Assembly: GCA_003194525.1 (NCBI GenBank)
Contig: NBIV01000001.1
Span: forward strand, 124,001 to 188,000
From: Gracilariopsis chorda
Lineage: Eukaryota > Rhodophyta > Florideophyceae > Gracilariales > Gracilariaceae
Length of the DNA: 64,000 nucleotides
Reading direction: 5' to 3'
Shown here in pieces: positions 19,622-63,330 of the stretch. Under the pieces are notes generated by a model, which searched no databases, was not told the origin of the DNA, and saw only the letters and a list, made by a program, of their open reading frames with translations. The translations under genes were made by a program, and so were the position numbers. Within the stretch, counting starts at the first letter, position 1, and each line of letters begins with the position of its first letter.

Positions 19622-19744
19622 AAACCGTATTACAAGATGAAGCGGCCTTCGGCCGCGGGCGGCGCTGGACGCCGCGGTAGAAGAGTGATAAAACGCGGTG
19701 GGAAGAAAAAAGGGTGCAGAAAGCAGAAGCAGAAAAGCAAGTAG
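19622..19744 (+). other. GC hairpin and a short Lys/Arg-rich open frame
   Basis: GCGGCCTTCGGCCGC at about 19647-19661 is a perfect 6-bp-arm hairpin. Downstream the frame encodes a peptide rich in R, K and G (GGAGRRGRRVIKRGGKK) ending at 19744. The hairpin lies near the 3' end of the adjacent Helitron, where Helitrons carry a hairpin, but I could not find a convincing CTRR terminus beside it. Confidence 0.35.
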
Positions 19745-22800: not shown

Positions 22801-25197
22801 ATCCGGTCGGTCAAACGGTCGAGGGCGGTTACTTTGTGCCGTAAATGCGCCACGATTGGTGGTGTCCATCCCAAGACGCTGGATGTCCTCTCGCCAGATG
22901 TTCATGGTGATTGTAATGAACAGAGAAGGCGGTCCTCTCCGCGCCACGATCGCCTGTACATCCATGCGCTTGTTCTTCCAGTATGCTGCTGAGTTGACGG
23001 AGTCATCGGGCAGAAAGATGCGTCCCATTAGCACGAACTGGGATTGTGGCACGTGACCGGTTTGCTATTGTGCTTGCTGCATTTCTTTCTCTCGTACAAT
23101 GCGTGCCCGTTGTTCTCTTTCCAGGAAACGCAGTCGCATGTCCTCAATGTTTGTGTGGGTGCGAAGCATCCACATCTGCATCAACGGTCCGCTGTTGAGG
23201 AGGATTTTGTCTGAGTACAAACGTCGCTTCGCGTTCTGAGCCCAGGTGAGCTTTCGGAGCTTCCACTCGTTGACGCTGAGATCTGAGCTTTGCTGTGTGG
23301 AGTTCCTTGCCTCCAGGAACAGGCCGATGTCAAATGGTTCGTGCTGATCACCGTACGGGTAGAGAAGAGCGAAAGTGCCCTTCTCTGCAAGTTTAGATGC
23401 CGGTTTTAGAAGTCGGTACCGCACTTGCGCATTGTTTGCGGCATTCGCAGTCGCCCCTGCTCCAGCAGCAGCAGCACTCGTCACTGCAGCGTGCTCTTCG
23501 GTTACGGTTCCTTCTACCAAGCGCGGTACTTGAGACTCCACTCGATACAGGCCAGTTGGATCCACGACGAGCGTTCTCATCATGGTTGGCCCGCCACCAG
23601 GAGCATCTTCAGGGAGAGGCCCAGCACCTGCGTGAGGAGCACTGACTGTGGCACTTCGGGTTCCTTCGTAACCACGTACGACTACTCCCTCTTCTGCTGC
23701 CTGCATGCTGATATCGACGGCGGTATCTGCATTTTGTTGTTGTTGTTGTGTGCTAAGCATGGATCGGTACCGCTCACGCACCACGTCTGGCTTGGGCTGG
23801 ATCACATCGTACAACTTGGGCACGATGTCTCGTACGTCGATGTCTTGAATGAACGCACGCAAATTGGCACGCGCATAGTGAGAGGGATCCAAGGAAGGCG
23901 GACCAGTACCCCACAGAAAGCTGTAGCGCGTGTTGTTCTGGTTCTGCGCGGGCAGAGCGAGTGCTGCGTTGCCCTCAAGTCTGAGAAAGGAGGGACCGCC
24001 TCCCGTCACATACGACATGTCCATGAGCGCTTGCGTCGTCGCGAAGAGCGTATTCAAGTTGAGGAAATGGCTGTGGAAGGCTCTCAGGCTATAAAGACTG
24101 CAAACCAACTCGTTGCTATGCCTTCTGCGGAACGTAACGACCCACCCTGACATTCTTTTCATTCCACAGCACACTCCATTGGTCTCTTTGCCAAGCAAAA
24201 CGCATCCGCAGTACTTGCAGCTATGAATTCTCAATGTCCAGTCCCGGTACGGGCAGGAGGAGAGCGTGTGTGCGTGCTCGCCGCATCTTCCGCATCGCCT
24301 TTGACCTGCAGTGGGAAGCGTCTCAAACTCCGGCACGCTTGCACGGATGGCCGGATCATTCCTCGCCTGAGCTGCCACGGAATCCCACGCATAGTACACG
24401 CGATAGAGTCCTCGATCAGGACGCCCAGCACAGTGCATGACCGTCGTATCAAGCTGTTGCTGTGGCTGATGCTGCGGCTGGTGTGAGGGAGCCGGTGTTA
24501 TCTCATCCTCTTCCACCTCCATCGGAATGGGCATCTGTTGTTCTTCCTGTTCAGCTTGTGGCAGCGCAGGCTACGGCGGCAGGTGTGAGGGAGGCCGGGT
24601 GATCTCATCCTCTTCCACTTCCATCGGGAACGGCATCCGTTCTTCCTCTTGTTCAGCTTGTGGCAGAGCAGACTGCTGTGGCGGCGGTGGCTGTGAGGGA
24701 ACAGGGATGATCTCATCCTCTTCCACTTCCATCGCAACAGGCATCTGTTCTGCAGGCATCGGTGGGAGAGGGGGAGGCATCGGAGGCGGTGGGATGTGAC
24801 TTGGAAGGCCTCTGAAAAACTTCAGAAATTCAAGAATTGGGCATGAAGTTGGTAGATATGTGGCAACGGACCTAAAGGCTCCAGCGGCGCTTGTGCTAAC
24901 TGCAGCTGCAACCAAAGTAGGTGCAGGAGTAATTTAGTCTTCTTCAACCACTCGAACAATATGTCCTTGAACGTGCGCTACGCTTTCATTTACTCCCAAC
25001 TCATCTGTAGCTGGAGGAGCTGGTGCTTTTCGGGGTCTTCCAGCTCCTGCCCATGCTCCACCACTGCTGACGCGATAACCACCAGCGTTTTGCCTTGCAC
25101 CGCCTGCGTTCAACCTGGCACCTCCAGCACTGTCTCTGGCACCTCCCGAATTAAATCGGACGGCACCACAGTTCAGACGTCACCCTCCTTTCGTCAT
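19815..25197 (-). mobile_element. Helitron
   Basis: A nearly complete Helitron coding region containing the Rep (HUH) and PIF1-type helicase domains expected of a rolling-circle transposon. It is unusual in its N-terminal part, which has Gly/Arg repeats and tandem acidic/proline repeats. The element ends (5' TC, 3' hairpin plus CTRR) could not be placed, so the true borders extend beyond the coding region on both sides. Confidence 0.9.
19815..25197 (-). pseudogene. Helitron Rep-helicase protein, interrupted
   Basis: Rolling-circle replication protein that would nick and unwind the element's DNA. Order: ATG at 25197; GGAR-type repeats; three repeats around MEVEEDEI; a zinc-finger segment (CGRCGEHAHTLSSCPY, CKYCGCVLLG, about 24140-24300); the Helitron-like N domain; HUH motif LPHHHMLVWLEGG near 22640-22680; tyrosine motif AYLMKYAFK near 22300; PIF1 Walker A GSARTGKT near 21150; VVLDGASM in the Walker B position; LSGDYSQLLPVVP; and the C-terminal [14 protein letters not shown] and YVALSRV. 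Interruptions in the minus-strand frame: TGA near 25180, TAA near 24932, TAG at 24571-24573, TAG at 23065-23067, a one-base frame change near 20290-20304, and TGA at 19919-19921. Homology resumes in the same frame after each stop, so decay is recent. Confidence 0.88.
24500..24765 (-). repeat. tandem coding repeat in Helitron N-terminus
   Basis: Three units of about 100-110 bp, each encoding MPxxMEVEEDEIxPxPS followed by a proline/glutamine linker and ALPQAEQEE. They remain similar at DNA level (TCATCCTCTTCCACTTCCAT recurs in two units, with one change in the third). A fourth, more diverged unit (VVEED) lies near 24935. Confidence 0.85.
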
Positions 25198-37881: not shown

Positions 37882-37960
37882 TTATGTGTTGAAACGCCTC
37901 CATTCAGTCAAGAACACCCCCCTCATACGCATTTATATGCTTATATTGGAGAGATTGTAG

Positions 37961-38564
37961 TGTACCTACTTAAGTGAGCGCGACTCCATCGTCGCGAGCA
38001 CTAAGTAAAGTTAACCTGAGACTTTGGTCATTTATAAATATTCAGTTTGACCTGAGGTATCCCGCTCTGGATTGGGACGTCGTTGCACCGTCTACTACTC
38101 CTCGCGGACGGTCAACGAATTTGGTTCGCTCAATACACCCGCTCAGTAAAGCTACAGATACTCTGTGTTATAATTGTCGTGTGACATTATCTACCGTGTG
38201 GAACTGCTATCGCCCCTGTATTTGGTAATTCGTCCGCTATATCTCGTGCAAATGCGTCCTCAATTGGGTCTGTTTCCGCCCTTCCGCACGACCCGCCGGG
38301 TGGGGTTTCTCCGTCCTCAGAAGGCACTCTTCACCGGGTATATTCTAAACCGCCGCATCACGTGGCTCCCCAGTCTCTGGTTTTACCGTCTTTCTAGCCC
38401 CATTTCAGCTTTCTTAATCCACCTCTGTGATCAATCCGGAATACCTACGGCGTTACGTCCGTATTTAAGGTATACAGAGGGCTCTGGAACTGGGTCTGCC
38501 TCCACAGGCAGCAAGGCCCCGGACACCTTGAGTGTGATACCCAACCTTTGGGTTTTGCAGTACA
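37961..38564 (+). repeat. 5' LTR of gypsy element 2
   Basis: Begins TGTACCTACT and ends TGCAGTACA, giving TGTA...TACA inverted ends and 604 bp. The start matches 46587 onward (shared blocks TCGTCGCGAGCACTAAGTAA and GGTCATTTATAAAT). Near the start GCGCGAC and GTCGCG form a hairpin. The primer-binding site follows after two bases. Confidence 0.85.
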
Positions 38565-46240: not shown

Positions 46241-46570
46241 GAGGAGGAGGAGATGTTGTGCAACGCGAAATGCGTGGAAACCGCGATGATGCTACTCATA
46301 GAAGTGCTACGTGGTTACTGTGACGGCTCAACCGTATATGAGTTGGAACCGTACGAGGTGATGCAAATGGGATGGTTTACTGTTTGAAATTTCACCTACA
46401 ACGGTATTAATCTAGAATGGATTGCAGGATGAGTGGACACATGTGCACGTTTGTGACAGCACCCTATTGTAGTGATATGTTTTACTTGGGTTGACCGCTC
46501 GGGGTGCCTGACACTGGCCTGCCCACGTGTGTAGACCTGAGCAGGTGTGCACTATTGTACTTAATTATTA
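46241..46570 (+). repeat. polypurine tract plus dispersed 313-bp repeat, copy 2
   Basis: A purine run (GAGGAGGAGGAGA, 46241-46253) is followed three bases later by TGTGCAACGC. From 46258 the sequence matches copy 1 at 19310-19621 over its whole length. A polypurine tract directly before a TG start is what a 3' LTR looks like. The 3' LTR of element 2 starts 16 bases after the repeat ends. Confidence 0.75.
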
Positions 46571-46586
46571 TAAGTTATTATGGTAG

Positions 46587-46975
46587 TGTACCTACTTAGG
46601 TGGGCGCGACGTAATCGTCGCGAGCACTAAGTAAAGTTAACCCGATACTTTGGTCATTTATAAATGTTCAGTTTGACCTGAGGTATCTGACTCTGAATTG
46701 AGACGTCGTTGCGCCGTCTACTATTCCTCGTGGAGGGTTACCGCATTCGGTCCGGTCAATTCACCCGCTCGGTAAACCTACAGAACCTCTGTTTTATAAT
46801 TGTCGTGGGACATTATCTACCGTGTCGAACTGCTATCGCCCCTTTATTAGGTAATTCGTCCGTTACATCTCGTGTATGTGCGCCCTGCGTTGGATCTGTT
46901 TCCGCTTTCCGCACGACCCGCCGGATGGTTTCTCCACGTCCTCGGAAGGCACCCTTTGTAGTACAGTGGGTACTA
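46587..46975 (+). repeat. 3' LTR of gypsy element 2, similarity to 5' LTR partial
   Basis: Starts TGTACCTACTTAGG and follows the 5' LTR for about 390 bp (for example ACATTATCTACCGTGT and TTTCCG..CCGCACGACCCGCCGG), with many substitutions. Beyond about 46975 the two copies no longer align by eye, so the rest is replaced or highly diverged. Confidence 0.8.
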
Positions 46976-47618
46976 TATACGCTCCTAGGGATGGGCTGTG
47001 ACGGACGATTCCTAACAGAGTATCTGTATTTTCTAACTGGTGCCATGTAGCACACCACTCCAGAGGAATCATTCCAGTGGACTATAATTTGACTAGGTAG
47101 AATAACCTAACTTAGATTATTATAGGGTACAGTGGATAGTTTCCGTCGAAGTCAGCTCGCAGTGCTGTACATAGTGCGCCGCTGGAGCTCCACCTCCGGG
47201 GAAGTAAACCAAGCACCCTCGAGGCTTGTTCTAGTTCGTTTGGTTCAACCTCGTGATACACACCTTCAGGTACACTACCTCGGTGTTCTCGTTATGCTAG
47301 TTTGGCATTCAAAACACAAAGAATTAAAATGAACGAATAACGACTCTTCAAACCCAATTTTGAATCAATCAAATTTCTCAAAATAATTCCATACATAGCA
47401 CAGAGCTAGTTTGCTTGGGACAAAAGAATAGCAGTATACTAGACATTTCCCAGTTTCTTTGGAGGTAATACTAGCGCCAGATTCCACTAATACCTACCCT
47501 CTCAGGTGCACGTGGAATAGAAATCTTACTGGTCCGGAGCGATTGCCCCTTCAAATAGCAGAATAGAGTAGATAGAATAGATAAAATAGATACATAGCGT
47601 TTACATAACCAAATAGCC
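46976..47618. other. unassigned spacer before the Plavaka transposase
   Basis: No gene seen. An AT-rich stretch with repeated ATAGA steps (47560-47600) lies just before the transposase start. Any element terminus would be expected here, but no inverted repeat matching 62.6-62.8 kb was found by eye. Confidence 0.3.
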
Positions 47619-50600
47619 TTGGCTTTCTATCACCCGTTGCCCGACCTGCTCCCTGCATCGCATGCTCTACCCCACGCCCTACGAAAAGACGCTCTGCATC
47701 ACGTGCACCACCTCATCTACGTGCGCCATAATATTACGCTCCCCGATATCCCACTCTGCCACCACCCTCCCTTCTCCGTTTCCAAGCATCCCGTTCTCGA
47801 TCCTCCTTCCCCCGCCATGATACCCTGTTGCCATCCCCGTTGCACCTTCTATGGCCGCACCGCGTTCTCTCTCCAAAGTCCCCAACGCAGGTGCCCTCAT
47901 CGACTCACCCTCGACAAACGCCCTTCCTTCTCCACCAACGCTCCCGTCCAGTTCCCTCCCAGGACCAAGCGACGAAAATCCGTTCCAAACCTCTCCACCA
48001 TTCCTCCTCCCACTTTCTCACACCGCCCCTCCGACGACATCCCCCTCGCCGAAGATGACCCCTATCACATCCAACAGCCCTCCCTTTCCCTCCAAACACA
48101 AGACGCACACCACATGGCAAGTCACGCCCTCTGTTCAGTGTCCTCCTCAAACCCACCTTCCCATACCTCGTGCCAGTCCCCCTCCTCTCTCCTCAACAAC
48201 TCCCTTCTCGAACAACTCGTCCTCTACATCTCCTCCATCGCTTCCTCCTTCATCACACGCAAAGCCGACGAACTCATCTCTCTTCTCAGCCACCGAGACT
48301 TCTCCAAGTCATTCTTCCAGAAATCCATCTCCTCCGCAAAGCAGTGCCTCGCACTCCAAGAACAGCTCCTCAAGGAATGCATCAGCTCCACCGGCTTCAT
48401 CCCTCTCACACTCACCGACGAGCACAACTCCCTTTCCGCAACCCTCTTCCAAAAACGCACCACAGACGTCCTGAAGCAACAACTTGCTCTCGCACACTTC
48501 AACAACACCTTCTTCCAACCCGTGTCCCACTCTTCCCCTTTCTCCTCTTCCACCCCCGCCTTCGCCCATCCTATGGCCGCAGCCTTTGGAAACAAAGTCG
48601 TTGCTGCCTTCAAACAAGCCATCATGCAGTGCCACATCAATGACATCGTCTGCCATACCCCCGAAACAACCGGTATGGAATCTTTTGTCGGTCTCGTCCA
48701 GTTACACTCTGATAAGTCGCCCACCTCACTCAAGAGCTCCTCCATCAACTCATATCCCCTTCACATCACCCTTCTCAACTTTTCAGACGCATTCCGCCGA
48801 AAGTGTACCTCCGAAAACCTCACCCTCCTCGGATACCTCCCAAACTCCTTCTCCCCCTCTTACTCCCCCGACTACGCAGGATTCATCCCACATTCGTCCT
48901 CCATCATCCCACGCGAAACAAGAATGGACCTCATTCAGCGCGCCATCTCTGCAATCCTCAACCCACTCCTCTTTTCCGCCCTCCTCGGTTTCTCATTCCG
49001 TGACGCCCACGGTGTACTCCGCCACTGCCACCCCATCCTCTCCAGCTCCTGCGCAGACATCCCAGAGGCAAAGGAAATCCTCGCCATCTCGCACGGAACA
49101 CGACCACATCACCCCTGCCCCAGATGTACCGTCCCCCGCGAACACCTCTCCCTCAACACAAACCCCATCCACTTCCGCACACAATCTCAGACTCGAAACA
49201 AACGCAGAGAACACGCCGCTCTCCTTCGCCAGTCCGACGAAGCCCAGCTCGCCCTCAAGCCAAACGTCGCTCGCACCAAAAACGTACAAGCAACCAGAGT
49301 CCTCCAGTTTCTCTCCCTCGCAAAGTATCCCTCTCTCTCTTCGAATCTTACGCCATTTTCAACATCACTCCCCTTCTCTCCTCTTACAACATCTTCGCCT
49401 TCGAAACCCTTCACAACTTCCACCTCGGCGTCTCAAAGCTCATCAAAGCCACTGCCATCAAACCACTCCGTTCCGAATCACTCTTCACCACAGTCGGCCC
49501 CAAGAACACCAAACGTTCTGTCCATTCCATCTTCACCTCAATCCTCAAACACTCCAACTCCATCCTCGCCGCCATCGAAAAGAACTCCCCCGCACCCGGC
49601 CTCCATATCGACTTCTTCACAACCGACAACTCCCAAGCCCTCAACGGCTTCTTCACCACAGAAGGATTACGAGGAATGCTGGAAGCAAAGGATTACCGCA
49701 CCCTCGACATGGTCTTCCCCTTCATCGGCGCCTTCTTCGACAGATGCTGCAAAGAAACCGACTCCTCCCCCATCACTTCTGTGTTCAACAAGTACACAGA
49801 CCTCCTTCTCTCCGCTATGCGATACAACTCGTCCCCCGAATGGACAGACACCTCCCTCCTATCTCTCGAAAAACACATCAGATCCTTCAAAGTCACAGCC
49901 GCATCCATTATCGGACCCTGCCACTCCTACCACATCGGCACCCTCAAGTTCCATCTCCTAGACAACATCGTCGAAGACATATGCCGATACGGGGGTCTCC
50001 ACTTCAACGACGAAGGCATCTTCGAGCATGCCCACGTCCTCTTCAAATCACATTACTCCAAAAATTCCAAGCGAAGAGCCACCGCCTATACAGAAACCAT
50101 CCGTGCTATAGACCGCTCCAATCTCTTCGAAGACTGCAATCCACTTTCCGCAGACCCTTCCCTATCCTCCCATGCTTGACCTCAAACTCAAACGCAACCA
50201 CGCAAACCCTCCTTCGTACGTGACGGAAAACATCTTTCCTTCCAGGACGTCTTCACAGCCGCAAAGTACCTTGCATCCACCCCCAACCCAAGTCCAAAAT
50301 TTTTCAAGAACTCTTCTCATCAGACACGCTCTCAATCATCTCACAACTAGGTCACACCACACTTCATTCCTTCGTCTCCCTTTCCATCGAATATCTCAAG
50401 CTAAATCCCTCACCCAACAACCTCCGTCGAACTCGTCTCACCTTCGTCAACTCCGCATACGTCGTCGGCGGTTACATCCCAGCACTACACAATTACAACC
50501 AAGAACGAAACGAACTCGTCCTCCAAGAACCCTCCGTCCTTCTCCTCCAGTGCATCTTCGCCATTCCATCACTCGGACCTTCCAGATCACCAAAGTTCTC

Positions 50601-51072
50601 CCATATCCTTGTTGCAGGAACCAACTCCTCCTCTCCATCCACACCCACTGTATGGGTCTCCAAGCTCATTGTCCTAGTTAGCTTCAAGCTACCTTCCCCC
50701 TCTTCAAGCTCTTCCACCCCCATTACAAAGGAATTCGCTTTCGTACAATTCCTTGAACTCGTACCACCCCGCGACAATGTCTATATCACCCTCAACTGCG
50801 GCTGCCTTCGGTGGTCAACCGATGACCAGCGGGACCACACCATCGATCCAGTTCCCAACTCCAAACCTTCCACCGACGACAACGTATCTCCTTGATTCGG
50901 CCTCATTCCTTCCACCTCCATTCTAGGTGCAGTCCACGTCATTCAAGAAAACTACCCCGCCTATCCATTCACTCCTCGTCTTCACTGGCGCTTCCATCGT
51001 TTCTACATCAACCGATTCTATCGTGACAACTCTTCAAAGCCTTACACCCCACAATCTACAACACAGCAGTAA
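47619..51072 (+). pseudogene. Plavaka-family DNA transposase, interrupted
   Basis: A cut-and-paste transposase of about 1150 codons. The N-terminus has a Cys/His cluster (CCHPRCTFYGRTAF, RRCPHRL). The core shows Plavaka landmarks: SDKSPTSLKSSSINSYPLHI followed by NLTLLGYLP near 48710-48845; SSCADIPEAKEILAISHGTR and HHPCPRCTVPREHL near 49045-49150; SYNIFAFETLHNFHLGVSKL near 49385-49440; and a C-terminal VHVIQENYPAYPF and FYINRFYRDN near 50935-51030. The frame changes near 49300 and again in about 50180-50300, and TGA at about 50893-50895 interrupts the C-terminal part. The first 780 codons are open. The coding strand is strongly C-rich and the protein Ser/Pro/Thr-rich, unlike its neighbours. 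Confidence 0.82.
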
Positions 51073-51094
51073 ACCACCCGTTCCACCAGTAACA

Positions 51095-53526
51095 CTATTC
51101 TACTTCAACTTGTTCTTCATAACCTCCCAGACCTTCCTCCCACTGCGCCTCCACATGATCCGTCGCCTCACCTCTCCCAACATCTCGACTCTCTTTCACC
51201 AACCTCTTCACCCACACATCTTCTGGCTGACACGCAGCAACATAACAGTCCAGCACCCCTCCCAGCCGTTTCGTCATATGTTCCCAAAAGTATTCATCCT
51301 TCACGGCCAAGTATATCCTCCGCTTCGAAGGTATCCACAGCGCTACCGTCACTTCTCTATCCCCATTCCCAGCTTTACAACGCCGGTCACCCTCATCGCA
51401 ACCTTCATTCTCCAATTCTTCATGATGTAGCTCTCTCACCCTCTCCCATGCCACACCAAGTATATTCTCAACCGCGAGCAGAACATACTCACCGTACAAC
51501 GTAGAAAATAACAACTGCCATCTTCCTCCACGCCCCACATCTGTGTCCATTGCCGTCAAAACACATCCGATCCACGCATCCAAACGAGCCAAATGCATCA
51601 CAGTCCCATCAACCTACTCCATCTTTCCCCCCCTTTCCGTTCCCACCTCATATCCCATGAATTCTTCCAACAATTCCACCGCAGCCCCGTTTTTGAAGTA
51701 CATGTCCCCTTCACTAAACTCTCTCAGCCGCCCAGCAACCTGAAATCCAGAATACGTAAGATCTTCGATTATTTTCATCCTCCAAGAACACAAACTACCG
51801 CTCTTCGCCTCCCCATCCCCCTTGAACTTCGTCTTTGCTTCCTCTAACTGCTTCTTCAACTCAATGTCTAGCTCCGTCCCCTCTCGCGGTCTCACACGTC
51901 TGGCTATCAAGTCATATCCAAGCAACGAAAAAATTTTGTCCCGTGCCGCACGCTTCCGAACCCCAATCAAATCACTCAACTTCTGCTTCATAATTTGCCT
52001 CAAAAACCTGTCCGCAACAACCTCCCGCACGCATTGATCCTTCCTACCCGCTTCACAAATCGACTCCCATCTCTCTCCCTCAATCTCAACGCCAACCAAG
52101 TACTTCAATAGTTCATTACTTCTTCCTCGCGACGAAGGCGTGTGCGACCTCATCTCAGACGCAATCTCAAACGGACATCGAGGTACAATCTCCTTTCCTC
52201 CCACAACAAACACACTCCCCTCTTTTCAATTCCCCAATACTTCGCATCGATTCGTCCAGTTTCTTTCCACACCCTCCGAAGTAAAACAAAGCTCCAATAC
52301 CTCCACCTTCACATAGTACAACAACCTATCATATACTACCCTGGAAAACTCATAAAAACCCTCTTGCACATCAACCACATACTTCCTATGCCCTCGCGAT
52401 TCCTTTTCACCTTCAGATTCCTTTCTCTCCCCTCGTCTCACCTTCATCCCTTCCCGTAAGCTATCTATCAGCAATTCTTCTCGCTCATCTCTCCTCTCAT
52501 CCTCTTCAGTTCCTCTTGCGTCAGCTTCAGCGACATCTTTAGGCTGCAGTGGTCCCCTTTGATCTGCCCGAGTTCTGCCCTCAACATATTGACCCTCCCA
52601 ACTAACGAAGATCGAGACATCACACCGATGTCGTCATTCCCTGCATCACCCAAAATATTGATAGGCACCCGTCGCTCCTGAGCAAGCTCACTTGGCGACC
52701 GATGAACACTTCGTTTCCTCTCTCGCATTCCTTCCGGAGTCCGCGGGGTTATGCTTCCTTTATCACTTTCCAAGTCTTGAGCCATTTGCACCTTTCGCGC
52801 CCGTACCGGGGTGCTCCTATGTTCTCCGCTTTTCGATGCTTCCTGTATTCCATCCGTCGCTCTGACCACTCCTTGCACTTCTCGTGTTTCCTTTAAATCA
52901 GAGTGGCGTCCCACTCCTTCCTTTATTCTCTCTCTCGTCCATCTCCCTTTCACAATGTGATCCTCTTCGTCCCCATCACTCTCTACCAAAGGGACATTTA
53001 CCTCTCCTCCATATTAATTTCCACTTGGGGCTCCACCTCTCTCCAGCGCAACTGCCTTTTCCATTTGTTTCCTTTCCGGCATTTCTTCATCTTCATTTCG
53101 GTCTTCGACCCGCGCATTTGCTTTCAACCCTCCCTGATGTGGTACATCTTCTCTTCTCCTAGTAACCGACCCTTTCTTACCCTCCACCTCACCACCAGAC
53201 CCAGGCATAGATCGCTGTCCCCGAACCGAATCTCTCCTGCGCGCTACATGCGCATGGGCATCAGCCTTCAAATTCTCAGTCGTCGTGCGCTCACTCGTCG
53301 TGCGCTCACTCGTCGTGCGCTCGGATCCGACGTTCTTTGCCCCACCTCTTCCCCCTCTCTTCGAAGCACCTTCTGTTGACCTCCTCCCCGATAATCCGCT
53401 CCTGGCAAAAAAGGATTTCGCTTTCGTTCTACTCGCGATTCGCTTCTCAATAGCCTTTCGCCGGGTATTAGGCGCACTCGCCGCACCACCCCTTGCCTGG
53501 CCTCGCTTCTTTCCCTTTGGCACCAT
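51095..53526 (-). pseudogene. RG-rich, coiled-coil protein convergent with the Plavaka transposase
   Basis: Not a known family. ATG at 53526 (MVPKGKKRGQARGGAAS) starts a basic Arg/Gly-rich N-terminus with TTSER repeats, followed by a Ser/Arg-rich region, a coiled coil (VGRVNMLRAELGQIKGDH, LTQEELKRMRGEM) and a helical C-terminal half (LRQIMKQKLSDLIGVRKRAA; VRELHHEELENEG). Interruptions: TAA at 53014-53016, a frame change near 52470, TGA near 52226 and TAG near 51614; reading resumes in the same frame after the stops. Only about 20 bp separate its end from the transposase end. An accessory DNA- or RNA-binding protein of the transposon is plausible but not shown. Confidence 0.55.
53280..53324 (-). 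repeat. 15-bp coding microrepeat (SERTT)
   Basis: Three tandem units of CGTCGTGCGCTCACT (plus strand), the last diverging at its end. In the minus-strand frame they encode SERTT repeats inside the basic N-terminal region of the RG-rich protein. Confidence 0.85.
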
Positions 53527-53823
53527 TCTTGGAGTCCAACCTCTTGCGCAAGTAGCTAGTGACGCTCTGGGATGGCGCACGCCGTGTGTTGTCCGGGAAA
53601 ATCTCGCCACCCAATGCGCACAAAAATCTTTGTTATTTGGGAAATCTTGAGAATACAATCCTCCATGGTACCGAAAATGGACGTTTCTGTGTCACATCTA
53701 TATCGCTTTGTATCTTCTATCCTTACTGAAAAGTGATGTTCTTCTAAGTTAGGAGTACACATCCGTTCAAATAATAAACTTCGCTCTTTAGCCAAGCTGT
53801 GGACAAAGGTTTATAACAACAAA

Positions 53824-56800
53824 CTAATCAATGACTATCGTTCCATCCTCCACATTCAAATGGGTTTGCCAGTCATAAAAATCACTGTATCTGGCGAGGA
53901 GTTCCTCTCATTGCTCTATGTTGGCTGTCGCCTCCATCTCAATAAGTTTGTAGTCCGTTATTCCCCCTGGTGTTCGTCGCACTCCCGGTGTCCGTTTCAT
54001 TCGCACATTAGCCTACCTTTTTTTCACGAGAACATCCACCATGGCATCTAACTTTTTATCCCCTTCCACGTACTTTGGATCGTTGATATACCCCGCAATA
54101 CAAAAAGAGGCATGAACCACCCATAAAATGGGGTTTGCTTCTTTTCCATGCCAATTCGTCAGCTGTTTTCGATGCGGAAGTGATTGGAACTGTTGACCAT
54201 ACACTTCTATCTCCACCGCATACTTCCGGAAGCGATCCTTTGTCACACCCATGACTCCCTCCCCGTATGTCTTGTGCACTTCTTTCCGATTCCAAAATGT
54301 CATGATAAACCAACGTCCCGTAGAAATAGCACACTACCTCGCCTGCAGCAATTCGACGAGTTGCAAACACTCCAACACCAGCCTTTACGTGACGAATAGT
54401 AGACTTGCCCACTCACAACCCATATTGCACAGCCGCCATTGCCAATAGAGACCTCATATTCTCCAGATTCATTCTTCCCTGCAGCGCCTTCGGCCATCCA
54501 TCCATAGCTTTCTTCCTTCCCAACGTCCCTAGAATTTCACTTTGCCACAAAGTGGAGAGAAAGTCGACAAGGTGTGGGGGAAGAATTTGGTAGGGTGGAA
54601 ATCCGTCAAAATCCCTCCATAACACGGTGTGCCTGCTTCTTCCCATTGGGAATGCAGAGGAAACACAATGGGCCACCTTTCGAAGCTCCTGGCTCTTCTC
54701 AATATCCGTGTGTCCTTCCTGTATTATGGAAGCGAAGCCAACAATAGCGGCATGCCTGGCGTGTTCAAAGCAAGCTTTGTCTGGTTCACACCTCACAAAC
54801 TTCCGATGCTTGGGCAGTTCCATGCACGCCATCGCTGTCGAGAACGTTCCGGCAAACATGTCGACCACGAGGTCTCCTGGCTGACTGAACCTGCAGATCA
54901 GCTCTTTCAACAGTGCCCTACACTTCTGTTCCGGTCGCACCCTCTTCCTCGTATACTTCCCATCCGGGGTTTTCACAGACCACATGAGCATCTCATTATT
55001 TGACATCGGCGGCACCTGATCCATGATTGCATGATACGCTGGGTATTTGAAGCAACATAAATGAAGTTCTCATAGTTGACTATCCGGTGCTGGTGTGCAT
55101 AAGGAACTCCAGAACGAACAGCATGTACAGCGTATTCTGTCGTCTGGTGCAGATGGCAACTTCTTCTCCCAACGTTACCTGTCGTATTACCTAAAGACAG
55201 TACGAAATGGAGGGGCTGTTCGTCGACGACAAAGGAGTAACGCATCGTATCAGAGTCATCCCTGTAGGTAACTTTCCGTAGCATATCCCGCCACAACGTT
55301 ACCTGATCCCATGAGCAGAACTGTTTAACATGTCCACCAGGACGTAGAAGCTTTGAAGACCTCCTCGCTGACCTGCTCATGCCCTTCTCTGTCAGAATAT
55401 CGTGTTCGCAGTTCTCCAAACGACGCTCAGAACGAGTCCCATATGGTGGATCGGAAAGCAGGAACTGTACCCTTCCTTCAATAGATACCTCGCTTTCGCC
55501 AGCCTCGTTGTCATCAACTTCGATGAGATTTTCGAACTTGCAGTTGTGGAGACGGAAGTTGCGGGACATCTCCTTCTCACAATATTTGTAAGCTATCACA
55601 TCATCCAAAGTCGTAGGGTACGGTGGTGCACGAATCCCCGTGCCTTCGACATCATACAATAAGTTCTGCGACAAAGCTGTTGTCTGCAATCCTTCAGTGG
55701 CCTTTGGTGCAGTACCACGTTCCACAGTACCACGTTCTGCATCCTCTACCATCTCTATCTCTTCCACTTCTTCCCACTCACCCTGATCACACCTTCCACG
55801 CGCTCAGCACGTTCGTTCCCACCACCAGCCGTACCAGTTTCTACCGGCTCCACAATGATGTCAACGTCTTCTGCGGGCTCTGGTTTCACAGCTTGATGTA
55901 CTTTGACATTGCTCCCATGCAATGCAATGAGCTTCAGAGGCTTTATGGCCTCCTGAACTGTAGTGACAAGAGATTCACTAAAGTTCTCACACCGCAGAGG
56001 TAAAAGTCTCGTTCTCGTGATGATGAACCTTTTGAGGGCATCCCATTTGCTGGGAGCAGAGATGTCGAACAGTTTCTCTTGTACCACCACATTAGAAAGG
56101 TCACCAAGGTATTCTTTGGCACAAAGGCGAAGCGCTGTATCCACTGGGTCCGGCAGATTCCATGCCCATTTGGTAACGTTTTCTTCTACGGTGGTGACGT
56201 TCTTCTCCTCCACAAACTGTTTGGAACAATCTTTGTGTTGGAAGCCCATGAAGCGTTGTGCGATATCAGTGAGGTCTACACTGATATATTCGAGTCGAAT
56301 GTAAGGCAAGATCATAACCTCAACGTTGGGAAACCCGATGAATTGGGCGAAACAATCCCAAGCGCTGGTCACCAGCTGCACACCATACCCGACTCTCTGA
56401 CTCTGGGTCATCTCCGACCATCTCAATTTCGAGAAATTCTTAGCTTCCATGCCCCTTTTCCTCTTCCTACTACTTCCTTTCTTATCCACGGCAATGTGTT
56501 GCACCATAGACAACCCAATGACCATTTCAAAGTCGGTGCAAGGATCCGTGTGGAAAGCGGAAGATTTATTGGTTGCTCCCAGAACACGGGACTTGCAAAA
56601 GATAGATAGCAACACGTTATGGGGAATTCCTTTAAGCCCTTCCCTTTTACAATAAACCTTCCAAAAGTCCCTTACACGCCTGTCTTCTTTACGGTCCTTT
56701 ACGTGAACCACTCTTGCCATAAGATAGAGTTGACGTGGAGGGCCTCTGAGAGACATGTTACGGAGCTCGGAGTCCGAATACGAGATGTAATCCGGTTCGA

Positions 56801-56975
56801 TGAGAGTGAGAAACATTTTCTTGGCGGAGTCATGAACGTTGCAACTTTGTACCGTGAACTCCACAAAGTCGGTGTGCTTCAAACTTCTCGGCTCATCCAC
56901 ATTTTGCCTCGTCGCTGCGTAGTCATCACTAACTGCAAGATAAGCATCGATAAGCTCTTCTCCGGTTCCGTGCAT
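53824..56975 (-). pseudogene. DNA amino-methyltransferase fused to a SET domain, interrupted
   Basis: Three parts in order. (1) 56975-55755: 406 residues of unknown fold. (2) 55767-54413: an S-adenosylmethionine DNA methyltransferase of the N6-adenine/N4-cytosine type. Catalytic motif IV VQFLLSDPPYGTR near 55440 precedes motif I DLVVDMFAGTFSTAM near 54850; that order is the beta class. (3) 54412-53824: a SET domain (AGVGVFATRRIAAGEVV, ASFCIAGYINDPKY, then YKLIEMEATANIE and EELLARY), the fold of protein lysine methyltransferases. The frame changes at 55.76, 55.02 and about 54.30 kb. GTGAGTGGG occurs near the end of the first frame and again at the MTase-SET junction, where TGA is followed by GTG, so short introns are possible. 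In-frame TAG at 54013-54015 and TGA at 53908-53910 interrupt the SET end. Confidence 0.75.
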
Positions 56976-57020
56976 CTTGAATGCACCCGTTTCCTTCGGA
57001 TTATGCTTCTCTTTGTTTTG

Positions 57021-57168
57021 GGTCGAGGACCGTGGTCCGAGGTGTCATGGTGCTCCATCGCGAAGACGATGGAGCGCCAGGATGCAATATTTTAATTAAA
57101 GTTCATGCCGGGTGCTCCTTCGTGTTCGTGATGGAGCACCGCGACACCTCGGACCATGGTCTTCGACC
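57021..57168. repeat. imperfect inverted repeat with nested hairpins in a divergent promoter
   Basis: Left arm 57021-57078 begins GGTCGAGGACCGTGGTCCGA; right arm 57111-57168, read in reverse complement, begins GGTCGAAGACCATGGTCCGA. The arms are 58 bp each and differ at about ten sites, with a 32-bp AT-rich spacer. Inside each arm GGTGCTCCATCG-type and CGATGGAGCGCC-type halves form a further hairpin. It lies 46 bp upstream of the methyltransferase gene start and about 210 bp upstream of the ParB-dioxygenase start. Confidence 0.9.
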
Positions 57169-57269
57169 AAAAAATTATCAAATATTTTTGCAGTGCAAGT
57201 AATTGGAAGGGGAATTGCAGGGATGCTACGATGACGACGGATGGATGTCATAAAACGTCTAGAAAACGA

Positions 57270-57278
57270 TATATAGTG
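57270..57278 (+). promoter_or_regulatory. TATA-like box of the ParB-dioxygenase gene
   Basis: GATATATAG lies about 105 bp upstream of the chosen ATG at 57380 and between the inverted repeat and that start. Position and sequence suit a TATA box; nothing else supports it. Confidence 0.4.
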
Positions 57279-57379
57279 CTTACGTCCATCTCTTTGGAAC
57301 TAAGCATACGTGATCACGGGAGCATTCGACGTCAGCGGGTGCCAAGAAAACGCAAGCGCGACCTTTGAAGTACTCAGCC

Positions 57380-60300
57380 ATGGATTCCACTGGGAATAAG
57401 ATAAACGTGCCATCACAGAAACGGACTCCGAGGAAGCCTGTTTCGCCGAAGAGACGTGTTATCGACATGCCAACCACGCGAGGCAAAGCGAAGAGCCGGG
57501 GCGCCACCCGAACTGCCAGCCACCCTGAGCCATCATTTGGGGGCAATACGGGTCAGGTGCTTAAGGGCGATGCGGAGGTCAACCTGTTCGTATGAGTTGG
57601 GAGTATTGATGCGATGTTGAAGGTAGGGGAGGCGAAATTGCACGGTGTGGGGGTTGCTGGGAGGCCGGGGACGAGACTCTGTCGTTCACTACACAACCAT
57701 CCCCTGTCCTCTATGCAGAGACCTGGAGAGGACTTCGTGGTTATCTCTAAGACAAATATTTCGTCACAACCAAGATGAGAAGTACCCTTATGTTTTTGGG
57801 GGTCCCGAGGAACCGCCCGCAACTTTGAAGGAGATGGTTTCAGCGGGTTTATATGCATGGGATACTGCGATGATGAGTGTCAAAAATGAAGGTGGAGAGG
57901 GGAATGAGTCGGTTCCACCGCAGTCAGGAGCAAATTTGAAGACTGTCCACAGAAGTACAGCTTTCAGGACCACTGTAAGACAAGTCAAGCGCCTTCCCGC
58001 TGTTGCTGGTACACCATCAAGCATTTTGGTGACCAAAGCGCCGGTGAAGAGCCTTGAGAGCGGTTGAGAGGCTCCGGTGAAAACCTCTCAGAGCGGTGGA
58101 CGAACATCAGGTGCTCTCGCGGGCGGCTCTGGAAACCGAGGAGGCCCTGAAGTCGGAGCAAGCTCCGATGATGACGTCAAAGAGGTGCCTGTACTCTCCA
58201 GGAACGATCTTGATCCGGAAAAAAGGGTTTTATATGATGATGGTGATGCTGTTCTTTCGGAAGAGGTGGATAACAGTTTGGGGGTCTTAGACATCAATCG
58301 AGATGATTATGACCAGCAAAATTGCGTAATCGATATCCACAACATTCGATTTCCGAAGAACATGGTTCGTTCGAAGAATGACAAACATCTTCGAGATACT
58401 TCGAACAAACTGAGGAAATTCGGATGGCTCCCTTTTCTTGGGTCGATTGCGGTGGCCCTGTTGGAGGATGTGCCGGTTCGTGACGCTATTGATGCGAGTG
58501 GGTGTTTGATTGTTCCTGTGGTTTTGGTGGACGGCTTCCATCGAGTGATTGTTCTACTGGACCTCGAGCAGGATGGTGCGAGATGGGCACGGATTACTGC
58601 TGGTTTGAACGTCACGCTTTGGGAACGGAACGATGGCCGGAGAATGACATTGAATGAGGTGTTGTGGCTGGGGAAGACGTTGAATGATTTGAGCTCCAAT
58701 TTTCTGGTGATGTCCTTCGCAGATAAGATTCACACTGCTGTTTTGTTTATTCGTAATGGCGTAGAGCAGGATGGGTATGAGTTGTCGAAGCTTAAACCAA
58801 GCAAAATCACGGGGGTGTTGTGGAGCAGTGAGACGAAGGGGAATGAAGGGAAGATACGTCATTTCAATCGCCATTCTGCTCTTGCTCTGAAGTTTGCGCT
58901 TAATCCCGGTCTGTTAGAGTTCTTCGATGTGGTGTGGCAGGAGACGCCTCAAATTGGAATCACTCATGTGTCTAGTGATATTCTGCTTGGAATGTCAGGG
59001 GATAAGTTTCGTTTTACTATCCAATGTCTACAGGCGCATGTTCGAGTGAGGTTGGCGGCCACTGTGAGGATGGGACCGTTTGAGGATTTCCGAAAGTACT
59101 TCTTCGACTGCGCTTCTACAACATATGACATTTGCAGTGAGCTGGGGAGTTCCATGAAGAAGAAAAAGAATGTACAGGAAGTGATGAATACCACGGTTAC
59201 CATCGGCGATTCTGACCAGACTGTGTCAAAGTATATCATAACTCGTCTGGGGAAGTGGTATACGAAAGGGAAACGCAGTTCACTGGAGTCCAGAGTGAGT
59301 AATAAGGTGAAAGAGGTTCGTGGGACGTTTTCCAGCGCTTTGTTAGGCATGCCGGGACAGGATGCTACTGCTGTTGCTCCCCCGGCGGCAGATGTGGACG
59401 TGATCGAGTTGCTTGGTCTGAATGAGGAAGCTGCTCAGGAGCCTCCAAACCGTGACCAGGAGCCTCGAAGAAGTAAACGAATATCAAAGAAGCGTAAAGT
59501 GGAGGTCCTGGACGAAGATGAAGATGAAGAGTCAGTTGATTTTGAGCCACCGGTGAAGAGGCAGAGACGATCGAATCGTAAGCCGACTGCACCTGGTGTG
59601 AAGCGACCTGGCTTTGGTATCTCGCAGGAGGTGGTGGAGGTGCTGCGTAGTATGGAAAGGAGAGATTTGAAGAGGTGGTTGACAGCACAGGAGATCATTG
59701 TGCTCGAGTCAAGCGAGGATGAAGCTCAGGAGGACTTTGTGGATGATGAGGAAGACGAGGCTGAGAAGCAGCAAACCGCAGGCAGCTTTGACGATAAGAA
59801 TCCTGACAAGCTTCCAGCTGGCTTACGTACGCCAGGAGAGCCGGCTATGGGAGCGGACATGTCTTGGGTGGACCAGGTATACTCGTTGCCGAGTGAGTGG
59901 CCTGCAAGTGGAAATGCAGTGAAGCATTCCCATCCATGTATGCAGAGGATAAATCTGAGGAAGCACCATCGGGCGGAGTGCCTATCACCTGATGACTTCC
60001 GAATGGTTCATCATGCTGTGTACTGGCGTGCGTCGCGCAACATGCAAAAGGAGATGGGTACTACGACACGTGCAGTGCTGGGCGTAAAGATGCCGTCATC
60101 AGGAATGGCATCGAATGAAGAGGAAACGTTATGGATGGCCACTTTTGAGAGAGAGGACTTGGCTCGTGTTAAGCTTGCGAAGAAGAGAGTGGAGCTGTCG
60201 GAGAGAGGGTTTTGTGTGCTGGAGAATTTCGGGACCGATGAAGGCATGGCGAGTGAGGCTTCGAAGAGGGGACTGCAAATTGACGAAGATGTGATAGGAG

Positions 60301-61256
60301 AGCTGATGGACTTCTTCGAACGCGACTTTGTTTCGCAACCAGATCTCACTAACGAAGCGAATCGTGTTTTCTGGAATATGATCATCAATGAAGGATGGGT
60401 AAAGGATGTTAAGAATGGTATCAAGGCGGTGAGGCATTTCATCACAACCAAACGAGGGATTGCGGACAGAATTGAGGAGCTTGAAAACGGTGCGGTTCTT
60501 GCTCGAAAGAGAGCCATGTTGGATGCAAGGCTCGGTCAGATTGCAGCGGCTCTCGGGTTGTCTGAAAGTGGAACGACGTATGCCCCTCACACGGGTGACC
60601 ATATCCTTTGTACTGGAGAGGATTGTCCGAGGCAGGTGCTACAAACGGATTTCAGGGGTTTGACGGAGAATGACAGGATGAGAAATGTGAAACCGGGGTA
60701 TTTTGCAATGGCATCGGGACCGGATGCGTTCATGATTTGGGTTTGTGAACGGTCCCATACTCTAACAATGACACGGGGTAACTTGAAAGAGCTTTCGGCT
60801 TTTATGATGGTTCGGAAGTTCAGAGCTCCACCGTTTTCTGTGTTCATTGGAAGAGGGGATGTATTTCATGCTGGGGCTGGGTACAATGATGCAATAGCGA
60901 AAGGCTATTGCATGCGATACCATATGTACTTTGTACCTGAGGGATACAATCTCCCGGATGCGGTGCATAGGCAAAGCGGTTTTCGCCCTCCCTTTTTTAA
61001 TGATGAAGAGAACCGTGGCTATTTATGTGAGGTGGGAGGAGGGGAAGAGGAGCGGGGAGATGAAGCTGACGATAGAGATGTAGTTATGCAAGAAACCGAA
61101 GGTGAGAACCCGTCGGATGAGGAGGACGATGAGAATATACTGAAACCAGCGGAAATGAACACTGATGGAGATTATGAACAGGAAGATGACGATGAGGGTG
61201 AAATGGTTCCTAAAGGAGCAGAGGGTCTGATAGGTGAGGACGATGAAAGCGATTGA
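57380..61256 (+). CDS. ParB-like domain fused to a 2-oxoglutarate/Fe(II) dioxygenase domain
   Basis: About 1290 codons; the last 1059 (from 58077) are uninterrupted. ATG at 57380 starts a basic leader. TGA at 57593-57595, a frame change near 57775 and TGA at 58065-58067 interrupt the first 230 codons; these may be small introns or damage. Counting from 58077, residues about 85-250 look ParB-like: an R..ND..L..TSNKLRKFGWLP segment, then VDGFHRVIVLLDL, then LNDLSSNFLVMSFADKIHTA. The middle (about 450-600) is acidic and basic low complexity with nuclear-localisation-like RRSKRISKKRKVEV. The C-terminus holds a double-stranded beta-helix: RQVLQTDF (Q856, D858), GPDAFMIWVCERSH, GRGDVFHAGAGY (H931) and GYCMRYHMYF (R947), then an acidic tail. 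The first iron ligand, usually His, reads as Gln. Confidence 0.7.
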
Positions 61257-61851
61257 TAATGATAAGTAAACTAGTGATATACGTTTGTCAAACCTGATGA
61301 TTTCTTTTTATCTTTATAAGAATGTTTATAGTGAATGTTCATAGTGAATGGGAGAGGTTTACTACGATGGGGATTACTTTTTATGCGGCTTCATTCGAAT
61401 GATGCGTAATAACGAAGGGATGATTTCTACAAAGATTTCGCTTTGTTATATTCCATAAAGAAAGGTCTACAAGTATGAGAAGAAACTTGGGATGGGTGTA
61501 TTGGAGGGGAGAATGAAGGGGCAGCTCACATGAAACACGAATGGATGTAAGATTGAGTATGGGATTATGTATGAGAATTGAAGGTGATTGTATGGATGTG
61601 AAGGATCCCGTTGTTATAGCCAAATACCGCGATTGTGCATTCTGTTGATATAGAAAGTACTGGTTCTTTTCATACATGAATGCATTGGGGCGTGCTTGAT
61701 GTATGAAGAAGAGTGAAGAGGGTGAAGGCATTATCGTGTAGAGGTTCAAAATATTGTTTTGTGTGTTGGGAAGGACAAGGGTTGAGCAAATGAGAAGACG
61801 ATAAGCTGTGCATTTAAGCAGTGACAAAGTTGGTTCAAGTGAAGAGGTGGG
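61257..61851. other. unassigned spacer
   Basis: AT-rich DNA after the ParB-dioxygenase stop. A 167-codon minus-strand frame (61381-61884) has no recognisable feature and is likely chance. Confidence 0.3.
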
Positions 61852-61919
61852 ACATTCATTATCGACTTTTGAAAATTCATTCACGACTCTTGAACATTCA
61901 TTTTCGACTCTTGAAGATT
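61852..61919 (+). repeat. 21-bp tandem repeat
   Basis: Three units of the pattern CATTCATTTTCGACTCTTGA with small changes, followed by a partial fourth. In one plus frame they encode seven-residue repeats (HSLSTFE, NSFTTLE, HSFSTLE), a heptad pattern. They sit directly before the start of the small coiled-coil gene. Confidence 0.75.
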
Positions 61920-61920
61920 C

Positions 61921-62607
61921 ATGTCATTTGAGAACATCCACACGCACCATGACTACTATTTGCAATTTTTGGTCAGTGAGCTTGGGGTTGGGACGATGAT
62001 GGGAGGGGATGGTGGGGAGGGAGGTGCAGGCGAGGGTGGTCGAAAACGAGGGGTAGGGGGAGGTGGAGGGAGACGAATGGATGGGTTCTACCGCGATGTG
62101 AAGGAACGATTGAGGAGCGCTGGGGGAGGGCTTAAGCAGCGTTTGGATGAGTGCATTAAGGAGATTGTCATTGAGTTGGGAGGGATGGTTCTGAGTGCGT
62201 CGGAGGAAGGAGTGCCGATGGGTGCTGTGGCTGAGTGGCGCCGGAAGGTGAGGGAGGCTGGGGTGTGAGCAGAGCAGCACGTCGATGGGGTTGTGGAGTG
62301 TGTGGGAGAGGAGCTGGGGAGGCTGTGGAAGGAGAATGAGTAGTGGCAAGGACGGATTTTGGAGTTGGAAAAGCGGCTTTTACTGGTGGACAGGCCTGTG
62401 CATCTAGTCGAGGATATGCGGAACAAGATGTATGGAGGTGGAGGGGAAGGTGGGGTGGGAGGTGCTGTCGGGAGTGGGTCTCCGGTTACTCCTGGTGGTA
62501 GAGGGGTAGTTAAAAGAAGGTTGGAGGAGGAGGACGAAGAAGGATTGGAAGTTAGGAGTCGGTTGAAGAGGAGGCATGGAAAGAGGGAAGAGGGAGAAGA
62601 AGGCTAG
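61921..62607 (+). pseudogene. small Gly-rich coiled-coil protein, two in-frame stops
   Basis: Family unknown. ATG at 61921 (MSFENIHTHHDYYLQF) starts about 228 codons in one frame. There is a Gly-rich basic linker (GGRKRGVGGGGGRR), a helical core (FYRDVKERLRSAGGGLKQRL), a second coil (RILELEKRLLLVDRPVHLVE) and a charged C-terminal tail (VKRRLEEEDEEGLEVRSRLK). TGA at 62266-62268 and TAG at 62341-62343 interrupt it. The composition recalls the RG-rich protein at 51-53.5 kb, and it could be an accessory of the same locus. Confidence 0.5.
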
Positions 62608-62786
62608 TGATGTTTAGGAGTGACTTTGAGGCTGTTAGGACGACGGAATGGGTGGTATTGGAATCTGATGCGCGGTGCGTAGGGTTTGTGAGAACGGAGA
62701 GAGCTGCCCAGATGAGTTCCTGAGGATGAGTTGGAAGTCAAACTAGGGCAGTATGAAATTTGAAATTCAAAAGATGGAAATAAAAA
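62608..62786. other. spacer
   Basis: AT-rich; nothing recognised. Confidence 0.3.
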
Positions 62787-63330
62787 TGTTAGTTTTGGTT
62801 GAGTACTCGAAATGGCGCTGGCCGCTGCGCGGCCAGCGCCATTTCGAGATCTGTATCTAGCTTTTAGTGGAGAATGAACTTGCTCCAAAATTGAAACTAG
62901 TGATGCGCAGTGCATGTGAGGCAAGGCTCTGTAACATATGGAAGTGTGAATTCCAAAAAAAATTCTTTATTACTTGGCAAGCGCCAGAAACTAGCAGAAG
63001 CTATCATTTTCGTAGTATTTTTGAGCTTTTGCCTAAGAAACTTGCGATCTAGCACCTCTTCCTAGCATTCCGAGAACACCGACGTACTACGTCATCCTCT
63101 AGGTGTGGTTTGTAAGCCGCCAAATCCCAGCGCCTCCCATAGCAGCGCCCGTAGGATTATTGTCCGCCCAGTGAACCCACTCTCCGCTTGGTGCTTGCGG
63201 ATCTCCTTTCAGGATTCCCCCGGTCGCCGCTTGTATATGAAGGAGACCACCACCTATTGGAACTCATCTGTTAGGCCGAATCTAAAAGTCCTATTCTACG
63301 GAGGTTGTGCTCACCACTGGCTGTTCCACA
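62787..63330 (+). repeat. 5' LTR of element 3 (start approximate)
   Basis: The end is fixed by the primer-binding site. The start is placed at TGTTAGTTTTGG because that gives a TG...CA pair, a length (544 bp) close to the other two LTRs, and a strong hairpin near the LTR start as in elements 1 and 2. Confidence 0.5.
62806..62848. repeat. perfect 43-bp palindrome
   Basis: Arms CTCGAAATGGCGCTGGCCGC (62806-62825) and its exact reverse complement (62829-62848) are separated by three bases. The stem is 20 bp without mismatch and GC-rich in its centre. It lies about 20 bases inside the presumed LTR start. Confidence 0.95.

Follow-up and report, generated by a model that had tools for sequence, protein, structure and literature searches.

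A divergent gene pair carried by a Plavaka-type transposon

We analysed a 64,000-nucleotide stretch of the Gracilariopsis chorda genome (contig NBIV01000001.1; hereafter the window), in which a preliminary description had singled out two genes facing away from each other at 53824–61256. One was said to combine an amino DNA methyltransferase with a SET domain, the other a ParB-like domain with a 2-oxoglutarate/Fe(II) (2OG/Fe(II)) dioxygenase fold, and together they were proposed to form one modification system. The results showed that the gene pair is the cargo of a Plavaka-type (Plavaka-superfamily) DNA transposon of 15,807 bp (47278–63084), and that the locus is a large, many-copied DNA transposon rather than a set of ordinary host genes. 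The features identified are given below with the evidence for each; L, C and P numbers are our handles for loci and proteins.

47276–47277, no strand: left target-site duplication, TA (end reading)
47278–47300, plus: left terminal inverted repeat, 23 bp (repeat scan, genome pattern search, end reading)
47601–51045, plus: Plavaka transposase gene (PF18759, 8.8e-19; tblastn pieces; frame changes in the window copy)
51173–53598, minus: protein X (tblastn; 821-amino-acid (aa) open frame in L009 and L016)
53824–54291, minus: SET part of the methyltransferase-SET gene (stop codons in the window copy)
54416–55728, minus: beta-class-like amino DNA methyltransferase (PF01555, 6.8e-10; motif IV DPPY, then motif I DMFAGTFST)
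55758–56975, minus: N-terminal domain of the same protein (shares a frame with the methyltransferase in L020 and L016)
57016–57173, no strand: long palindrome in the shared promoter (66-nucleotide (nt) arms, 85% complementary, 26-nt loop)
57380–61256, plus: ParB-oxygenase gene (tblastn; 1417-aa frame in L011 and L013)
58302–59147, plus: ParB/Srx-like domain with an invariant DGxHR (alignment; hhalign)
60171–60995, plus: 2OG/Fe(II)-oxygenase-like domain (hhalign; HxD reads QTD in the window)
62086–62586, plus: small gene CC (tblastn; 276-aa frame in L015)
63062–63084, minus: right terminal inverted repeat, 23 bp (repeat scan, genome pattern search, end reading)
63085–63086, no strand: right target-site duplication, TA (end reading)

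The element boundaries were supported by several lines of evidence. A polarised GC skew spans approximately 47.5–63.0 kb and encloses the gene pair, with an imperfect inverted repeat at the skew edges. The terminal repeats, read from both ends of several copies, were CGTCGGTGTTCTCGnnATGCTAG. A 2-bp target duplication matched in 5 of the 6 elements with both ends read (window TA/TA, C114 TT/TT, C7 TA/TA, C53 AT/AT, C232 TA/TA), the mismatch being C10 (GA/TA). Searching the genome (91.3 Mb, 1081 contigs) with the terminal-repeat pattern at up to 2 mismatches yielded 280 matches (139 forward, 141 reverse), while the reversed control yielded 1 and 0. Among the 100 matches listed, 14 neighbouring pairs within 20 kb (4.7–18.1 kb apart) were in facing orientation and 1 was not.

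The transposase domain PF18759 lies just inside the left end (8.8e-19 in the window) and has 114 matches genome-wide; a 1160-aa transposase open frame is present in L009 and L016, with PF18759 at 2.7e-21 in the L009 frame. This domain, together with terminal inverted repeats and a 2-bp target duplication (2–3 bp being typical of the group), places the element in Plavaka. The termini (CGTCGG..) fit neither Plavaka A nor B of Kojima (TGT..ACA or CATCA..TGATG), and by its termini the element thus belongs to neither sub-lineage. A Pfam scan assigned no family to protein X, and none was found among the pieces of gene CC that were scanned. A perfect 20-bp hairpin was also observed at 62806–62848, close to the right end of the element.

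These observations bear on whether the pair could be a stand-alone modification system of the host. Two of the proteins, P0009 and P0012, are annotated in public records as ordinary G. chorda genes, which would be consistent with such a system. P0009 matched the genome at C39 with 99% and 98% identity in two adjoining pieces, against no more than 93% at the other places listed; a fungal host, which Plavaka might have suggested, was rejected on this basis. Against it stand the transposon ends, the terminal repeats and target duplication, and the multiplicity of both genes (43 ParB-oxygenase loci and 152 methyltransferase matches). The host-system explanation is therefore refuted at this locus and extremely improbable overall, single domesticated copies elsewhere being possible.

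The methyltransferase-SET gene

The minus-strand gene at 53824–56975, whose last base is 53824, matched N6_N4_Mtase (PF01555, 6.8e-10) followed by SET in Pfam; the SET match in the window piece (0.0024) lay under the Pfam cut-off, and no Pfam family was found in the N-terminal domain. In the window, the gene is split over several frames and its SET part contains stop codons, demonstrating that this copy is decayed. Introns were rejected as the cause of the broken gene, since the relatives are encoded in one frame and the window copy contains stop codons as well.

The relatives established that the predicted fusion is real. A single 1039-aa frame in L020 comprises the N-terminal domain, the methyltransferase (PF01555, 1.6e-11) and SET (PF00856, 7.2e-6). 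L016 retains 926 aa of a similar frame, and 1065-aa frames were found at C53, C745, C332 and C241, one of which is the place of L016. Eleven relatives were recovered from 5.8 billion proteins searched by profile. In the 7 homologues that were aligned (P0002–P0008; 28–38% identity to P0002), DPP[YF], DxFxGT and PF01555 were present in every sequence, and SET exceeded the Pfam cut-off in 5/7. Expressed in bits, PF00856 scored above 22.4 in L020 and these five homologues, and fell short of that value in the window piece and in the two other homologues, P0002 and P0008.

Beta-class amino methyltransferases are characterised by motif IV lying ahead of motif I. The window protein shows this order, with DPPY preceding motif I, together with PF01555, and among proteins of solved structure a profile search linked it to adenine methyltransferases of bacteria, for example DpnA, MboIIA and CcrM. 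The enzyme would be expected to methylate adenine N6 or cytosine N4. DPPY leaves open whether the product is N6-methyladenine (6mA) or N4-methylcytosine (4mC), as this domain is described as having evolved both specificities repeatedly (PMC8885841); judging from the motif, 6mA seems slightly likelier.

We also considered sources outside eukaryotes for the fusion. In prokaryotic contigs, at least 69 loci matched within residues 451–811, that is, the methyltransferase core alone, and among the matches listed none reached the SET part; a prokaryotic source of the fusion was accordingly rejected. A viral source was rejected likewise: viral contigs gave 4 loci with the methyltransferase core alone, and a single-protein ParB-oxygenase query of them gave none.

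Within G. chorda, N6_N4_Mtase has at least 150 matches, a number that includes families beyond the three described below. Further matches were noted at C435, C192, C842, C420 and C228, outside the list of methyltransferase hits; open frames at C435 and C228 exceed 900 aa, and Plavaka matches lie within about 15 kb at C228, C842 and C192. These five places are perhaps another methyltransferase-bearing element family.

The ParB-oxygenase gene

The open reading frame at 58077–61256, taken in the preliminary description as the partner gene, exists, and it proved to cover the 3' portion of a longer gene, which in the window extends back, with breaks, to about 57380. Relatives of the protein are few (P0001, P0013 and P0014). 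Direct Pfam scans detected neither a ParB nor an oxygenase family in it, and both assignments were therefore examined by profile-profile comparison.

For the ParB part, the motif DGxHR was invariant in 6/6 sequences. In hhalign, this part aligned to a YbdM family built from Escherichia coli YbdM and viral-contig relatives with a score of 40.5 (P 8.7e-5, probability 60%), compared with maxima of 20.8 for 30 shuffled templates and 17.1 for unrelated templates. An NCBIfam search gave a weak DGQHR match on P0001 (0.031). For the oxygenase part, alignment to three PhyH proteins of the same genome scored 28.6 (P 0.0042, probability 8%), with control maxima of 18.6 (shuffled) and 15.8 (unrelated); the top score over all shuffled templates, 24.1 for the oxygenase part against a shuffled methyltransferase, was also below 28.6. 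Profile searches of solved structures in the PDB with the ParB and oxygenase parts returned nothing significant, the weak sulfiredoxin match of the ParB part standing at 0.55. PhyH relatives were absent from the viral contigs searched. The TET/JBP domain PF12851 had no match in the ParB-oxygenase protein or in the genome, and the control genomes likewise gave none.

The putative catalytic residues of the oxygenase were then compared between copies. HxD and the distal His and Arg are kept across five aligned sequences, except that Gln replaces the first iron-ligand His in the window and Leu replaces Arg in L030, where the family C oxygenase sits. HxD is present in family B, family C, P0001 and P0013. 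A motif search found the site in 10 other distinct copies (L018 and L008 counted as one; no match in L002, L004, L025 and L029), with the His present in 10/10 and HxD in 9/10 (L003 reads HTN).

Taken together, the profile searches bore out the methyltransferase and SET assignments, the latter in L020 and five of the seven homologues, while the partner's domains received profile-profile evidence that direct Pfam scans did not supply. This evidence argues modestly for a ParB fold and weakly for a 2OG oxygenase fold.

Families, gene order and selection

Copies of the element fall into three families: A (including the window), B (approximately 72% identical to A in the methyltransferase piece) and C (approximately 39–45%). 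Family B has many copies with nearly equal scores. Searching by tblastn with family B proteins gave the order transposase (plus), X (minus), N-terminal domain-methyltransferase-SET (minus), ParB-oxygenase (plus) and CC. This order is common to the three families and complete in A; in the fetched B and C copies, deletions or the ends of contigs or stretches remove parts of it.

We then quantified linkage across the genome, using all 50 oxygenase hits (merged to 43 loci), 57 of 62 transposase hits and 109 of 152 methyltransferase hits, the last set excluding family C and any short second piece. A divergent methyltransferase was found upstream within 9 kb at 37/43 ParB-oxygenase loci and a same-strand one at 0; no methyltransferase match was found within 9 kb downstream of the 43 loci. 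An opposite-strand transposase lay downstream within 12 kb at 43/109 methyltransferase loci and was not found at the other 66. The two genes are thus neighbours well beyond the window, and the possibility raised earlier that their homologues never adjoin elsewhere does not hold.

To assess selection, the ratio of nonsynonymous to synonymous substitution rates (dN/dS) was calculated for the ParB, oxygenase, methyltransferase, N-terminal, X (A–B only) and transposase parts. Between families A and B, the ratios were 0.122 for ParB, 0.135 for the oxygenase, 0.206 and 0.189 for the methyltransferase, 0.181 for the N-terminal domain, 0.183 for X (123 codons) and 0.290 for the transposase. As the window copy is decayed, these values are expected to be inflated. 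The measured parts are under purifying selection (A–B dN/dS 0.12–0.29), and between A and B constraint is stronger on the cargo than on the transposase; between B and C this is true of the oxygenase and not of ParB.

These results support treating the two genes as a single conserved unit. The divergent arrangement in the preliminary description, with its short intergenic region, was thus correct, the additions being that the pair is transposon cargo and that the window copy is decayed. Similarly, the idea of one modification system was sustained insofar as the pair is conserved (37/43 loci divergent, three families, A–B dN/dS 0.12–0.21 for the measured parts of the pair), and was not sustained for a stand-alone system of the host.

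It could be argued that the genes were captured by chance and hitch-hike without joint function. Cargo capture does happen, as illustrated by family B, which has acquired a 417-aa gene that the window element lacks. However, the A–B dN/dS of the cargo parts measured is low, the divergent order is conserved, and families only about 40% identical nevertheless share the same gene set, making hitch-hiking without joint function very unlikely. The additional family B gene lies between the oxygenase gene and CC (L013:2037–3290, minus; also L010, and part in L015); it has no Pfam family, was not found in the window and appears membrane-protein-like by eye.

Palindromes in the shared promoter

The palindrome between the two genes is the only inverted repeat of such strength across the scan of the 64-kb window, and its DNA fold has a z of -14.5. 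Arms of 64–71 nt were found in 4/4 further family A copies examined. Family B palindromes have arms of 43–47 nt that are 94–100% complementary; one was seen in L017 too, and the palindrome is doubled in L011. The core GGWCCRYGGWCC occurred in 14 of 179 loci, all of them families A and B, with none in L005 (family A). In the window, the core lies only in the two palindrome arms, although 1.6 matches are expected by chance with one mismatch allowed. Family C has palindromes in the same place with different sequences: L021 and L022 each contain TTGACATTGTCG five times, and L020 has 80-nt arms. Position kept while sequence changes is the pattern that a co-evolving operator would produce, and a ParB-like protein encoded beside a palindrome recalls, by analogy, parS. 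Alternatively, these palindromes may stem from nested foldback insertions.

The palindromes also bear on a role in regulating transposition, in which the methyl mark would separate new from old copies or gate the transposase at the ends, with the ParB part organising the ends or the promoter. Dam methylation regulates transposition of bacterial Tn10 in this way, and transposase, methyltransferase and ParB part co-occur in all three families. Nevertheless, the window palindrome core is found in the promoter and not at the ends, no site recognised by the methyltransferase was found, and nothing ties this enzyme to the terminal repeats. We consider such regulation quite unlikely.

Host DNA methylation

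To place the element in its genomic context, we searched the genome for C5-methyltransferases, the enzymes of 5-methylcytosine (5mC). PF00145 and TIGR00675 gave 0 genome matches, compared with matches in 10/14 prokaryotic control genomes, although intron-split genes could be missed. A review puts methylation in G. chorda at approximately 8% of the genome; it is said to be mostly in non-CG context and to affect transposons, genes and promoters to an equal degree, small RNA being present at those transposons that are methylated (PMC8566409). If this methylation is real and the genome has no C5 enzyme, the transposon amino methyltransferases become candidate writers. A far-reaching version would be that G. 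chorda DNA methylation is largely or wholly written by the transposon-borne methyltransferase-SET fusions, that its signal is 4mC (or 6mA), and that the ParB-oxygenase is a paired eraser or modifier nucleated at the promoter palindromes. The even spread of methylation speaks somewhat against transposon methyltransferases as the genome's writers, and we regard this version as speculative and unlikely.

Proposed function and alternatives

We propose that the pair constitutes a write/oxidise cassette that the element carries for itself and that would act on its own DNA and chromatin, keeping them permissive; we put the probability of this reading at roughly 55%. The fused enzyme would write an amino-methyl mark onto the element's DNA, and its SET part would methylate a lysine of nearby histones. 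Through its ParB-like domain, the partner would bind the promoter palindromes, or spread from them, and bring in the 2OG oxygenase, which would oxidise methyl groups of that DNA or of the histones on it. The divergent promoter, and hence the element, would remain permissive and self-controlled despite host silencing. In eukaryotes having 6mA, this mark is described as accompanying permissive chromatin (PMC12695648), which fits an activating role. The division into writing and erasing, like every catalytic step above, is inferred from the sequences.

If active, the pair would combine a DNA and histone writer in one polypeptide with an adjoining candidate eraser. It could then account for the DNA methylation of a seaweed whose genome yielded no C5-methyltransferase match.

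Several observations weigh against the cassette. Support for the two folds of the partner protein is limited (hhalign probabilities of 60% for ParB and 8% for the oxygenase), and 6/43 ParB-oxygenase loci have no methyltransferase neighbour, not all of which is explained. Constraint is weaker between B and C than between A and B (dN/dS 0.40 for ParB, 0.21 for the oxygenase and 0.36 for the transposase; methyltransferase dS is saturated, with pN/pS ~0.55). Short copies that lack the oxygenase gene have also multiplied: the C232 element (7,985 bp, no oxygenase match) has a 608-aa frame common to 11 places, and therefore the pair is not needed in cis. In family C, motif IV reads DAPT in L020, DAPY in L021 and L022 and DVPY in L023, and no motif was found in L024; the methyltransferases of these four copies may be catalytically dead, a possible loss of catalysis in one lineage, while the aligned relatives retain DPP[YF]. 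Finally, the host's methylation as described in the review (PMC8566409) shows no focus on transposons.

Two alternatives assign the same enzymes other outcomes. In one, methyltransferase and oxygenase would act in succession on the same base, and the resulting oxidised N-methyl base would hide the element from host nucleases or silencing. Phages hypermodify cytosine likewise. The ParB and oxygenase parts have the lowest A–B dN/dS and travel with the methyltransferase, and an absence of C5-methyltransferases would leave a 5mC-erasing role without an obvious substrate; yet Pfam showed no additional modifying enzyme in protein X or the CC pieces, and the oxygenase gene is missing from the short copies. 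We consider base hypermodification doubtful, noting that it overlaps with the cassette proposed above and that the odds do not sum to one.

In the other, methyltransferase and SET would silence the element's own copies, and the oxygenase would lift the silence, for instance during sexual reproduction. The bdelloid enzyme N4CMT, described as depositing 4mC at transposons (PMC8885841), combines an amino methyltransferase with a chromatin domain by the same logic. However, purifying selection on an element's own silencer would need a special benefit, and the near-alike scores of family B copies make them look recently active. Self-silencing ranks a little behind hypermodification and is likewise improbable.

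Comparison with known systems

Transposons with one epigenetic enzyme are already known, and in the literature searched (open-licence papers) we found no description of an amino DNA methyltransferase-SET fusion paired with a ParB-oxygenase. Fungal DNA transposons, TET+ Plavaka included, carry TET/JBP, a 2OG oxygenase thought to counter silencing (Kojima 2025, PMC12730594). The G. chorda element resembles them in this respect and differs in its red algal host, in an oxygenase that has no TET/JBP match and is fused to a ParB-like domain, and in the pairing with an amino methyltransferase-SET fusion; its termini are CGTCGG.., whereas theirs are given as CATCA.. or TGT.. (PMC12730594). The term 'ParB' has 0 occurrences in the text of that paper. 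The same work describes oomycete Harbinger and MuDR elements with a SET lysine methyltransferase, the passage on them mentioning neither an amino DNA methyltransferase fusion nor a ParB-oxygenase (PMC12730594).

N4CMT of bdelloids likewise joins a bacterial-type amino methyltransferase to a eukaryotic chromatin domain; it is described as encoded by the host, with SPPY as its motif and a chromodomain acting as reader (PMC8885841). In the fusion studied here, the motif is DPPY and the chromatin domain, SET, would be a writer; this fusion lies on a transposon and has an oxygenase partner. The giant repeats of Amoebidium are also very large and flanked by a Plavaka transposase, and relatives of their genes occur in dinoflagellates or red algae; tyrosine recombinases make up many of these genes, and the section on the repeats names neither a methyltransferase-SET nor a ParB-oxygenase protein (PMC11244446). 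ParB-CTPase folds fused to further domains are known from mobile elements (PMC12704722), and 'oxygenase', 'transpos' and 'alga' have 0 occurrences in the text of that paper.

Other elements in the window

Outside the transposon, a Helitron-type protein was detected at 20308–23052 (minus), with Helitron_like_N at 2.5e-22 and a PIF1 helicase at 1.3e-32. A reverse transcriptase match at 2665–3804 (minus, 7.6e-32) and a weak integrase-core match at 147–1799 (0.00053, below the cut-off) are probably the remains of a long terminal repeat (LTR)-type retroelement. Two pairs of direct repeats were also found, at 37954–38331 and 46580–46956 (86% identical) and at 19307–19622 and 46255–46570 (88% identical); the right-hand copies of both pairs adjoin each other immediately to the left of the transposon.

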